Source: an uncultured Planctomycetaceae bacterium (lineage in GTDB: Bacteria; Planctomycetota; Planctomycetia; Gemmatales; Gemmataceae). Taken from it: DNA of 35,177 nucleotides. The stretch is taken from the NCBI GenBank assembly GCA_903960945.1, contig CAJCCR010000417.1, forward strand, positions 1 through 35,177, in the 5' to 3' direction. The first letter of the stretch is position 1. Every line of letters starts with the position of its first letter. The translations under genes and the position numbers were made by a program. The notes under the pieces are model-generated. The model searched no databases. It had not been told where the DNA came from and saw nothing but the letters and a program-made list of their open reading frames with translations. Below are positions 30,962 to 35,177 of this stretch, piece by piece.

Positions 30962-31525
30962 TTGCACAAGTATGAACTAACCGATGGTGGGATTCTTTTT
31001 TATGATGGTTCTTTTTTTTCTTCTATTATCTCTGATCAATATTTTTATGAAATTATAGGTTACAGTTGTTGGAATCAAAAACCTGGGGTCTTTGGCCATA
31101 TGCAACCCCGACTCACTGCAGCGTATGGTGATGATGGTACAAACTATTGCTATTCAGGTACTCAAAATAGGGCACTTCCATGGACGTCTACTTTGTTGGA
31201 GATCAAGAAAAAAGTGGAAACTGTCCTAGGTTGTTATAATTTTTGTCTTTTAAACCGTTATCGATCTGGTGCAGACAGTATTTCATTGCATTCTGATAAT
31301 GAGCAAGGTTTGGGAAACATCATTTCTACTGTTTCCTTAGGGTCAACTAGGAAATTTAAAATCAAACATAACGCAACTAAAGAAACAAAAGAATTTCTAG
31401 TGTCAAATGGTACCCTTATTATTATGGCTGGAACAATGCAGCGTTTTTGGAAACATGAAATCCTGAAAACTAAAGAAGTCGTCGGCGAAAGAATCAGCCT
31501 GACTTTCAGGCAATTGGAAGTATAA
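30962..31525 (+). CDS. AlkB-like 2-oxoglutarate/Fe(II) dioxygenase
   Basis: This 187-residue protein resembles the AlkB/ALKBH2-3 group, which repairs alkylated bases by oxidative demethylation. The facial triad is H110 and D112 in ISLHSDNE and H165 in FWKHEI; R177 and R183 in ERISLTFRQ are the 2-oxoglutarate-binding arginines. The substrate-side stretch PRLTAAYGDDGTNYCYSG is characteristic of the ALKBH2-like subgroup. Translation seems to start at a TTG (30962) with AAGGTGAT just upstream; no ATG lies in frame before residue 47. Its TAA abuts the TAG of the convergent TPR gene with no spacer. No ada or alkA gene is nearby. Confidence 0.88.
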   Translation: MHKYELTDGGILFYDGSFFSSIISDQYFYEIIGYSCWNQKPGVFGHMQPRLTAAYGDDGTNYCYSGTQNRALPWTSTLLEIKKKVETVLGCYNFCLLNRYRSGADSISLHSDNEQGLGNIISTVSLGSTRKFKIKHNATKETKEFLVSNGTLIIMAGTMQRFWKHEILKTKEVVGERISLTFRQLEV

Positions 31526-32506
31526 CTAAGAAATTGACATTTTTAGTGAGCTAGCTTTTGTAAAATCATCTTCAGATTCTTTGATTTTTCCCATTAATTT
31601 AAGTAGGCCACCTCGGTTACGGTAATATTCGGCTTCATTGGGGTTTAATTCGATCGCTAAATTATAATCTTTAATTGCTTCAGTATATTTTTGCTGTTTC
31701 TCAAAAAGGTTTCCACGCAAATTGTGGTCATCGGATTCTCTGTAGGGGGATAGTTCAATTACTTTATTGTAGTCAGCGATAGCTTCAGTATATTTTTGTT
31801 GGGATAGATATAGGTTTCCACGCAATTTGTAAGAATTTGAACTATCGGGGTCTAATTCGATTGCTTTGGTGTAGTTTAGGGCGGCTTCATGAAAATGATT
31901 TTGACTTTCTAATAATCTTCCCCTTTCTATGAATGAAATTTTATCCGTTGGGGGGCAGGGAGTATTAAGGAGATATTCGTTTATAAAGGTTCCTCTTTCC
32001 TTGGAGGATGATTTTTCTTTTGAGGGATCAGTTTGTTTTAAACCAGTACAAATAGTAATCGGTTTGTTCAAGCAGTTGCACATACCTTTTCGCAAAAAAT
32101 TTATAAAAAGTTCTTCTTTTGATGAGAGATTCATCGCTTTATTGTAGTCTGCCATTGATTCTGGAAATCGTTTTAAGTGTTCATTTGCTATCCCTCGATT
32201 TAAATACGAGACATGATTTTTTGGTTGGATTTCAATTGCTTTTGAGTATTCTTCTACGGCCTCAGCGTATTTTTCTTGTTCTGAAAATATACTTCCCCGA
32301 TGAAAAAATGCCTCTAAGCAGCATGCGTTCAACTCGATGGCTTTGTTGAAATTAATAATTGCTGTGTTATAGTCTTTTCTTTCTTTGGCTTTGATTCCAT
32401 TACGTAAAAAGGTTTTTAATTCCGTGGTTATGTGTCGTTTCCCTATTATTAATCCAATTATAAAAAAAATAACCCCTATACAAATGTTTGTTAAATATGG
32501 ATTCAT
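31526..32506 (-). CDS. Membrane-anchored TPR-repeat protein
   Basis: This 326-residue protein starts with a single membrane helix (NICIGVIFFIIGLIIG) followed by TPR units. Units are visible at about 42-75 (DYNTAIINFNKAIELN), 76-110 (YAEAVEEYSKAIEIQP), 112-132 (FPESMADYNKAM), and three later ones near 205-310. The last two, YTEAIADYNKVIELSP and YTEAIKDYNLAIELNP, are nearly the same at the DNA level, offset by 105 bp. Between the two blocks is a 50-residue linker (about 140-190) with four cysteines. It is probably a protein-interaction scaffold on the cytoplasmic or periplasmic face. It is convergent with the AlkB-like gene without a gap. Confidence 0.85.
   Translation of the reverse strand: MNPYLTNICIGVIFFIIGLIIGKRHITTELKTFLRNGIKAKERKDYNTAIINFNKAIELNACCLEAFFHRGSIFSEQEKYAEAVEEYSKAIEIQPKNHVSYLNRGIANEHLKRFPESMADYNKAMNLSSKEELFINFLRKGMCNCLNKPITICTGLKQTDPSKEKSSSKERGTFINEYLLNTPCPPTDKISFIERGRLLESQNHFHEAALNYTKAIELDPDSSNSYKLRGNLYLSQQKYTEAIADYNKVIELSPYRESDDHNLRGNLFEKQQKYTEAIKDYNLAIELNPNEAEYYRNRGGLLKLMGKIKESEDDFTKASSLKMSIS
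31681..31830 (-). repeat. Tandem TPR-coding duplication (105-bp period)
   Basis: Within the TPR gene, GCTTCAGTATATTTTTG (ending near 31,693) recurs near 31,782-31,798, and GGTTTCCACGCAA follows each copy at a similar distance. The period is 105 bp, or 35 codons, one more than the standard 34-residue TPR. This suggests recent duplication of a single repeat unit. Confidence 0.6.
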
Positions 32507-32759: not shown

Positions 32760-34013
32760 ATGTCAAATTTTATTCTAAATAGGCGTGACTTTTTTGTTGC
32801 CGTAAGTTTATTTGTTGGTGGTAATTTAAACGCCAATCAATTAAGCACGTTACCTAAAAAAAGGGTCATTACCAAGGGTCCCGGTTATCACTGGTTTGGT
32901 TACTATGATAAACTTCAGTTTGACCCCTCTGATAGGTTTGTTTTGGGAATGAAGGTTGATTTTGAACATCGGTCTCCCAAGCCGGACGATGCGATTCAAA
33001 TCGGAATGGTCGATCTGAAAAATAATGATCAATGGATTTCTCTTGGTGCTAGTAAAGCTTGGTGTTGGCAACAAGGTTGCATGCTGCAATGGTTGCCAGG
33101 TTCAAAATCTGAGATTATTTGGAATGATCGTGAAGATAGTCCTATGCCACATTATGTCGCTTGTATTATGGATGTGAATACAAAAAAAATCCGAACCATA
33201 CCTGCACCGATTTATGCCGTTTCTCCTGATGGTAAAAGTGCAATTGCTGCAGATTTTCGACGCCTTCATGATACTAGGCCAGGTTATGGGTACAGTGGCG
33301 TTCCAGATCCTTCTATTGAACTTGCTCCTAAAGATTCTGGTTTGTTTCGTATTGATCTTCTAACTGGAAAACAAAAGCTTTTATTTTCGATGGCGCAAAT
33401 TGCAGCTTTTGGATCACAGACTGATGATATGATCGGGGCCAAGCATTGGTTTAATCATTTGCTGTTTAATACTGATGGGACCCGTTTTGTTTTTCTCCAT
33501 CGTTGGAAACCGCAATCCGGTAAATTTAGTTTTAAAACCAGAATGATCACCGCTTCAGTTGATGGGTCTGATCTTTATATTCTGGATCCATCGGGAGCAA
33601 CTTCGCATTTTATTTGGCGTGACCCACAGCATATTCTGGCGTGGACCCAACCCAAGGACAAACCCCCTGGTTTCTTCTTGTTTAAGGATAAAACTTCTGA
33701 AATTGAGCAAATTGGTGTCGGCGTTATGACTGAAAATGGCCATTGCACCTACCTTCCAGGAAACGAATGGATTCTTAATGATACTTATCCTGACAAGCAG
33801 AGATTCCAGCATCCTTATCTGTTTCATGTTAAATCGGGCAAGAAGGTTCCGCTTGGGGGTTTTCTATCCCCTGCCCAGTATGCCGGAGAATGGCGTTGCG
33901 ATACTCATCCAAGGTTTAGTAACGATGGTTCCATGGTGGTTGTAGATTCGCCTTACGAAGATAAAGGAAGGCAACTTCATCTGATTGATATTTCAAGTTG
34001 TAAGAAAATATAA
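32760..34013 (+). CDS. Tat-exported protein, probable beta-propeller
   Basis: This 417-residue protein has a twin-arginine signal (NRRDFFVAVSLFVGG), so it is likely exported folded. The mature part has repeated segments typical of propeller blades: FDPSDRFVLGMKV, WLPGSKSEIIWNDRE, AVSPDGKSAIAADF, NTDGTRFVFLHRW, WRDPQHILAWTQ and FSNDGSMVVVDSP. No family name can be given with confidence; the layout recalls TolB-like or oligogalacturonate-lyase-like propellers. Early conserved-looking motifs are GPGYHWFGYYDK and RRLHDTRPGYGYSG. The gene stands alone; AAAGG lies five bases before the ATG. A carbohydrate-related enzyme or binding protein is one possibility, but nothing in the sequence settles it. 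Confidence 0.75.
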   Translation: MSNFILNRRDFFVAVSLFVGGNLNANQLSTLPKKRVITKGPGYHWFGYYDKLQFDPSDRFVLGMKVDFEHRSPKPDDAIQIGMVDLKNNDQWISLGASKAWCWQQGCMLQWLPGSKSEIIWNDREDSPMPHYVACIMDVNTKKIRTIPAPIYAVSPDGKSAIAADFRRLHDTRPGYGYSGVPDPSIELAPKDSGLFRIDLLTGKQKLLFSMAQIAAFGSQTDDMIGAKHWFNHLLFNTDGTRFVFLHRWKPQSGKFSFKTRMITASVDGSDLYILDPSGATSHFIWRDPQHILAWTQPKDKPPGFFLFKDKTSEIEQIGVGVMTENGHCTYLPGNEWILNDTYPDKQRFQHPYLFHVKSGKKVPLGGFLSPAQYAGEWRCDTHPRFSNDGSMVVVDSPYEDKGRQLHLIDISSCKKI

Positions 34014-34072: not shown

Positions 34073-34543
34073 CTACAGTAATAGCCAAATTATTCCGCCA
34101 ACAATTGCAAATATTAAAACCAAAAATAAGGGCATTAAGCGTGGATCGTCTTCCCAGTGTCCGCTACGCGATTGCTGCGAGCAAATCTGGCGTAATTCCG
34201 AGCGTAGTTCTGGAAACCCATTCCACTTCGCAAAAATTCGAGAGCGACCGAAATCTGTGCTTATGAATACGGATGCTAGGTCGCCTGAGTTTACGTGACT
34301 GAAAGTAAAGATTAGTTTGTAAAAAAGACCGCGGTGATCGCCAGTCAAAAAATCATTTGCAGCAAAAATTTCAGTGAAATTGCATTCGCGAATGGGTTCA
34401 AAACCGAATCCCCCAATTCCAGATCTTGGCGAATGGCAGTTTTCAAATATAGCTATTCGCTGTGTCAAATTCAAAACCACACGCTGATCACTTGAATCAG
34501 GATTTTCACATACTATTAATTCGTCATTAAATTTGTTTTCCAT
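34073..34543 (-). CDS. Tail-anchored hypothetical protein
   Basis: This 156-residue protein of unknown family has one membrane helix at the very C-terminus (LMPLFLVLIFAIVGGIIWLLL), so it is probably tail-anchored with the bulk in the cytoplasm. The soluble part contains GIGGFGFEP and LIFTFSHVNSGDLASVFISTDFG; no catalytic motif was found. The start is supported by GGGAGA about six bases before the ATG. A 16-base perfect palindrome lies about 90 bp upstream and could be a control site. It converges on the Tat-exported protein gene with a 59-bp gap. Confidence 0.65.
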   Translation of the reverse strand: MENKFNDELIVCENPDSSDQRVVLNLTQRIAIFENCHSPRSGIGGFGFEPIRECNFTEIFAANDFLTGDHRGLFYKLIFTFSHVNSGDLASVFISTDFGRSRIFAKWNGFPELRSELRQICSQQSRSGHWEDDPRLMPLFLVLIFAIVGGIIWLLL

Positions 34544-34889
34544 TCTTTCTCCCTAGAGTGGAACTCTCCTGAATCCTCTTCGGAGCCTGTACCAGCAATT
34601 CTCTGTGATATTTTATCGGAACCTCAATGTCCTTCAATATTGAAGGGGTTCTGGTAGGTATTAGGTTGATTGATCTAATATAGGCTTTTGGGTGAAGCAA
34701 ACTGCAGCCTTGCCTGGTTGGGTTCCCAAGTACCAAATTCTTAATGTTTGTAAGTTATGCTTAAATTGTTCGCAGATTTTTATAATGATGTTTATGAAAC
34801 TGTAATTTGGGGTAAAAATTCTTAGAGTTCTTCCATAACTCATCGGTGGTAATTTGAATGTATGAGAGTTTGTAATAATTGAAATTTAA
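34544..34889. other. Intergenic region with a perfect 16-bp palindrome
   Basis: No supported gene is present; the two minus-strand frames lack ribosome sites and motifs. The stretch holds the perfect palindrome CCTTCAATATTGAAGG (34631-34646), flanked by GAACC and GGTTC, and the first copy of a 15-bp direct repeat (34807-34821). Confidence 0.6.
34631..34646. promoter_or_regulatory. Perfect 16-bp inverted repeat, possible operator
   Basis: CCTTCAATATTGAAGG is a perfect palindrome without a loop, so it looks like a protein-binding site rather than a terminator. It lies about 90 bp upstream of the tail-anchored protein gene. No bound regulator can be named. Confidence 0.35.
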
Positions 34890-34947
34890 GAGCCACCTGT
34901 GGAATTCGAATCCACGACCTACGCTTTACGAATTGGGGTAAAAATTC
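34807..34947. repeat. 15-bp direct repeat bracketing the tRNA-Thr fragment
   Basis: TTGGGGTAAAAATTC occurs identically at 34807-34821 and 34933-34947. The second copy starts at the very base after the tRNA-Thr fragment ends. The copies are 126 bp apart. Confidence 0.7.
34890..34932 (-). pseudogene. Isolated 3' half of tRNA-Thr(CGT), candidate attachment site
   Basis: The minus strand (34932 to 34891) reads exactly from the start of an anticodon loop to the discriminator base: loop TTCGTAA (anticodon CGT, threonine), 3' anticodon strand AGCGT, variable AGGTC, a perfect T arm (GTGGA, TTCGAAT, TCCAC), acceptor strand AGGTGGC and T. The 5' half (expected to begin GCCACCT) is absent; unrelated sequence starts immediately at 34933. 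A break in the anticodon loop with the 3' half kept is the usual mark of tyrosine-recombinase integration into a tRNA gene. In this orientation the element would lie to the right of 34933. Confidence 0.75.
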
Positions 34948-35177
34948 ATCTGAAGAGATGCATTTTGGATGCGATCCAGATGGGATTATTTGCTCCTTGT
35001 CTGCATTGTTTTGGCAATTGTTGGATTTAGAGAAACGAATTCTGATCTAGAAGAGCCAAAGTAGTGAATTGATCAAATCCAGATGTACTTTTCCATTGCC
35101 ATTAAATGCATTCTGAAGCCATTTTAATGGGGTTTAAAGGGCAAGACCTAACATTGCCTTCGAATCCCTTGTTAATG
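34933..35177. other. Right edge of window, no supported gene
   Basis: No gene with a motif or ribosome site is visible in these 245 bases. If the tRNA-Thr fragment is an attachment site, this is the first part of the integrated element or of its remnant. Confidence 0.45.

Follow-up and report, generated by a model that had tools for sequence, protein, structure and literature searches.

A 3' half of tRNA-Thr(CGT) beside a short gene-less insert in an uncultured planctomycete

We found that the right end of the window (the entire contig C417, 35,177 nucleotides, of the 458-contig metagenome assembly G000 of a freshwater planctomycete) carries the 3' half of a tRNA-Thr(CGT) gene, called the scar below, which is cut exactly at the first base of the anticodon loop and borders a short insert, X, within which the contig ends. 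In one genome of the same genus the site is unoccupied, and in another the other end of the insert carries a second 3' half. We lean towards the explanation that the scar is the original half of the tRNA gene, displaced by an integrase-type insertion at the anticodon loop, and that X is now a gene-less remnant or an element similar to a CIME (defined in the last section).

The half gene and its surroundings

The features of the window that are needed in the following are:

32760-34013, plus strand: gene for a protein of 417 aa, which in G001, G003 and G005 serves as the synteny anchor on the left side
34073-34543, minus strand: ORF of 156 aa in the native flank, without a Pfam or PHROG match, found in G000, G001 and G003 only
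34807-34821, plus strand: native-flank copy of a 15-nt direct repeat, at a distance of 126 bp from the other copy; G001 has GAATTGGGGTAAAAAATC at the equivalent place
34822-34879, no strand: native spacer from the flank repeat to the scar, directly adjoining the intact tRNA in G001 (alignment with G001 L066 8734-8830)
34880-34932, minus strand: 53-bp identity block, made up of the tRNA 3' half and 10 bp of trailer, also present at the occupied tRNA end of G003 and G005 (98% over 53 bp)
34890-34932, minus strand: the scar, 3' half of tRNA-Thr(CGT), beginning at base 32 of the anticodon loop and including one base after the discriminator
34933-34947, plus strand: copy of the 15-nt direct repeat, TTGGGGTAAAAATTC, abutting the scar at the distal end of the insert; the window holds only 2 copies
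34933-35177, plus strand: distal 245 bp of X, 93-94% identical to G003 L064 3503-3740

The identity of the scar is confirmed. Its minus strand, TTCGTAAAGCGTAGGTCGTGGATTCGAATTCCACAGGTGGCTC, contains in order the anticodon-loop bases 32-38 (TTCGTAA, with the anticodon CGT), the 3' strand of the anticodon stem (AGCGT), the variable loop (AGGTC), the T arm (GTGGA-TTCGAAT-TCCAC, with 5/5 pairs), the 3' acceptor strand (AGGTGGC), the discriminator T and an extra C. The initial annotation had described a fragment from the first base of the anticodon loop to the discriminator base, with a perfect T arm and without a 5' half. The beginning of the fragment, which is exactly base 32 of the 7-nt loop, and the T arm are as described, but the fragment extends to position 34890, one base past the discriminator at 34891. 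The 5' half is indeed missing: the loop is preceded by CCCAA instead of the ACGCT of the tRNA, and at the scar ARAGORN called no tRNA and Rfam gave no match. Note that a tRNA-Val is the sole ARAGORN call in the window. The scar is identical at 43/43 positions to the 3' half of the intact genes in G001, G002 and G005, all of the same genus; the best ungapped matches to the tRNA half in shuffled windows reach 24-25/43.

A DNA search of G000 that allowed up to 3 mismatches found no further copies of the half, and the scar is thus a single copy. An RF00005 search of the same assembly gave 38 tRNAs over the cut-off; ARAGORN called no tRNA-Thr(CGT) at the loci of the best-scoring 30 of these 38, and no intact tRNA-Thr(CGT) was found elsewhere in G000 by DNA search. 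This is expected if the intact gene lies just past the end of the contig.

The 156-aa protein of the flank has a C-terminal hydrophobic segment and is present in just three genomes of the genus among 41 searched. In the window, a gene for a 2OG-Fe(II) oxygenase (AlkB-like) and a TPR gene at 30962-32506 separate the genes for 424 and 417 aa, which are adjacent in G001. In G001, a gene for a repeat-rich protein of 724 aa (FG-GAP-like by eye; L066 9585-11759) lies between the 156-aa ORF and a 422-aa gene, and it is absent from the window.

The site and the insert in related genomes

In five genomes of the same genus a tRNA-Thr(CGT) gene lies downstream of a coiled-coil gene. A comparison with a relative lacking the insertion had been proposed together with the initial annotation, and G001 provides it: its intact tRNA-Thr(CGT) is directly followed by the left flank of the window, including the 156-aa ORF. 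The alignment between the window and G001 crosses the scar at 43/43, and identity is lost exactly at base 34932. Since the tRNA of G001 abuts the window's flank and identity ends at this base, G001 represents the unoccupied arrangement.

The occupied arrangement can be followed in other genomes. One contig of G003 contains, in this order, the flank, a 3' half joined as in the window, an insert of 383 bp and a second, perfect 3' half at the contig end. The second half is located 425 bp from the first and is preceded by the base T of the intact gene (TTTCGTAAAG). The junction of the window, GAATTTTTACCCCAATT/CGTAAAG, recurs independently in G003, and another contig of that genome carries a complete 5' half and ends in the same 3' half. 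In G005, an insert like that of G003 is contiguous with a whole tRNA-Thr(CGT) gene. On the other hand, G004 and G005 have part of the insert directly beside the intact tRNA gene without a recognisable scar. Among 17 relatives from the family, order and class, no second copies of the half were found near tRNA-Thr(CGT).

The size of X is about 430 bp, that is, 383 bp plus the 3' half, as in G003. In the window the remainder (about 140 bp and the 43-bp 3' half) would follow after the last base of the contig. The tRNA-proximal part, which reaches as far as tRNA-Thr, is present in G003 and G005. The annotation had predicted an element extending rightward to an intact tRNA-Thr(CGT), with an integrase gene. 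The second 3' half in G003 and the insert beside the intact gene in G005 agree with the direction and with the end point, which in this contig is probably situated past the right end. The element is only about 430 bp long, however, and the G000 contig stops within it. A sizeable island with an integrase is not supported: X is non-coding, and no integrase was found within it or in the fetched neighbourhood in the genus genomes examined.

We considered several possible identities for X. It is neither a multi-copy repeat nor part of a wider family, as it is single-copy and occurs only in G000, G003, G004 and G005 among 102 genomes of the order. No ORF longer than 32 aa lies inside the 383-bp insert of G003, and a small protein was rejected because the best candidate (31-32 aa) shows no synonymous bias and suffers a frameshift between G000 and G003. 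A known RNA family was rejected as well (no Rfam match above chance). An exact pattern search for X or the junction in IMG/VR viral contigs gave no match, matches in phage and plasmid collections were confined to the tRNA part of the query, and no related mobile element was found in the viral, phage and plasmid collections searched. Neither are X and the native spacer diverged copies of one flank, with no similarity between them apart from the 15-nt repeat.

On the tRNA strand, X folds better than its shuffles in G003 (z = -4.5) and in G004 (z = -3.3); the part held by the window is not clearly better than shuffles (z = -1.4). Between G000 and G003, X is 93% identical, compared with 70% at the fourfold sites of the 417-aa gene and 75% in the spacer beyond the scar. 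Between G003 and G004, X is 82-84% identical, compared with 33% at the fourfold sites of the coiled-coil gene. By these comparisons X is better conserved than neutral DNA. It may have spread horizontally in recent times, or its function as a tRNA trailer may constrain it, and the data fit both.

How the half gene may have arisen

In the explanation that we hold to be somewhat better than even, a circular or otherwise mobile segment would have carried its own copy of the tRNA 3' half, corresponding to the 53-bp identity block, and would have recombined with tRNA-Thr(CGT) in the anticodon loop. The incoming half would have restored the tRNA gene and the old half would have moved to the far end of the insert. 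The present insert of about 430 bp, with no recombinase or other convincing gene, would belong to the elements of remnant or cis-mobilizable (CIME) type, either decayed or devoid of genes. Since X has no recombinase, the enzyme, presumably a tyrosine integrase, must have acted in trans or been lost. Integrase-mediated insertion into a tRNA gene is marked by features that are all present here: an edge exactly at base 32 of the loop, an identity block (53 bp), the orientation and a relative with an unoccupied site.

We also asked where integrases are found. In G000, seven proteins match the tyrosine-recombinase domain Phage_integrase of Pfam, and the nearest ones lie on other contigs. Two of the seven adjoin tRNAs and have C-termini resembling translations through tRNA genes (L110 850-2292 on contig C32 and L112 1195-1779 on C71). 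In G038, from the same order, a decayed integrase-like C-terminal ORF (L127 627-1007, ending in ...CGTRTHDLRFTKAPLYRLS) is read through the tRNA-Thr(CGT) at 621-694, and the gene therefore looks like an integration target in the order.

Several observations do not fit textbook integration: there is no integrase, in G004 and G005 X adjoins the tRNA but no scar can be recognised, and the insert ends in a 15-nt repeat of the flank, which simple integration does not predict. Moreover, the attP core of tyrosine integrases consists of inverted half-sites around a 7-nt overlap. No inverted core half-site is seen in the joined sequence, where the left side is CCCAA and not the expected ACGCT, the inverted match to AGCGT.

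The same observations argue for the main rival, a partial tandem duplication or an unequal recombination that involved no integrase, which we take seriously but consider clearly less probable. Here, a unit that begins in the anticodon loop, includes the trailer and ends with the flank repeat would have been copied, or recombined between two allelic versions of the locus, tRNA-X-repeat and tRNA-spacer-repeat-flank, at a microhomology of 3 bp (GAA), and the second 3' half would have been left behind. In its favour, the 15-nt repeat abuts the scar and occurs again 126 bp away, so that the two copies enclose a 111-bp stretch holding the scar (about 3e-6 further copies are expected by chance in 1.28 kb). 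The native motif in the flank of G001, GAATTGGGG, has GAA in common with the anticodon loop at the exact join, which makes microhomology recombination between alleles with different trailers a serious rival, and X, adjoining the tRNA, looks like a native trailer in G004 and G005. On the other hand, the two copies of the unit differ inside (X in one, the spacer in the other), so that a second event is needed, and it would be a coincidence that the edge falls exactly on base 32 of the loop. The initial annotation had taken the fragment for an integrase scar. The displaced 3' half, the element to its right and the unoccupied relative speak for that claim, but a partial duplication at a microhomology would leave nearly the same scar.

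Another version of the integrase explanation seems rather unlikely to us, namely that X is a mini-element devoid of genes, about 430 bp long and consisting of the attachment region alone. Integrases targeting tRNA-Thr(CGT) would move it in trans, and horizontal transfer would have carried it from one lake planctomycete to another. If so, it would be the integrase counterpart of the transposon-derived MITEs, missed by tools that require 2 kb and an integrase.

It is improbable, in our opinion, that the fragment persists because it has its own function, for instance as a T-arm RNA element, a processing signal or an active recombination site. This possibility is raised by the scar of G003 (L064 3460-3502), whose T arm is TCGAG-TTCGACT-CTCGA. 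Compared with the intact T stem (GTGGA/TCCAC), four pairs of its stem (TCGAG/CTCGA) are changed on both sides, 5/5 pairing is kept and the variable loop is one base shorter; when every second base on average was mutated in a simple simulation, such compensated changes had a frequency of about 3e-4. We rejected a T arm borrowed from another tRNA, as no donor matched with up to 2 mismatches in 298 genomes of the class. The scar of the window, for its part, is unchanged despite a neutral divergence of about 25-30% between G000 and G003; the insertion may be recent, the intact gene nearby may have converted the scar, or selection may have acted. Against a function, just two copies are known, gene conversion could account for the identity, and the fragment folds no better than shuffles.

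An assembly artefact, a chimeric contig or misjoin, is very improbable; while both assemblies are metagenomic and the contigs of the window and of G003 end within or at the edge of the insert, it is already contradicted by the same junction in two separately assembled genomes, whose divergence is about 7% for the insert and 25% for the flank. The cut falls in the anticodon loop, the place of group I introns in bacterial tRNA genes, but the chance of a split or intron-containing tRNA gene is negligible and already contradicted, given the complete, uninterrupted tRNA-Thr(CGT) at the same locus in relatives, with no 5' half facing the fragment and no Rfam intron match.

Comparison with known tRNA-associated insertions

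Islands in tRNA genes with displaced gene fragments are routine. The Islander database contains 2083 islands with anticodon-centred crossover sites (PMC4383910). As in these islands, there is a downstream 3' fragment with an edge in the anticodon loop and an unoccupied relative. The complete gene in the same orientation at the opposite end would lie past the end of this contig; there, G003 has its second 3' half at a contig end and G005 the intact gene beside X. Unlike them, X has only about 430 bp and no integrase. Since Islander discards candidates below 2 kb or without an integrase ORF (PMC4383910), cases like X would be filtered out.

CIMEs are defined by the presence of both flanking attachment sites without recombination or transfer genes (PMC5704250). 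The insert of G003, 383 bp between two 3' halves and without such genes, agrees with this definition, and the window shows one end only; X differs in having no cargo gene at all, and its mobility and any partner element are putative. The ssrA islands of Dehalococcoides have no integration module, a direct repeat of a stable RNA gene and a 15-bp motif beside the repeats (PMC3146451). X is likewise integrase-less, at a repeat of a stable RNA gene and adjacent to a 15-bp motif, but the ssrA islands bear genes, form tandem arrays at ssrA and involve a serine recombinase. Finally, partial tRNA genes that are left as attR remnants of integration were described as pervasive (PMC9897764). The scar would likewise be left by the integration of an element, but the intervening elements in that work measure about 9-23 kb, compared with about 430 bp for X.

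X is thus an unusually small case of a known kind of insertion scar and not a new kind; what is odd is the tiny size, the lack of genes and the high conservation. So far, the process is an ordinary one, well resolved here at a single locus. The case shows that tRNA half-gene scars can bound inserts well below the size limits of island finders, and because these inserts are smaller than the finders accept, such scars are probably undercounted. Should X prove to be mobile, it would represent a minimal substrate of integrases, mobilised in trans.
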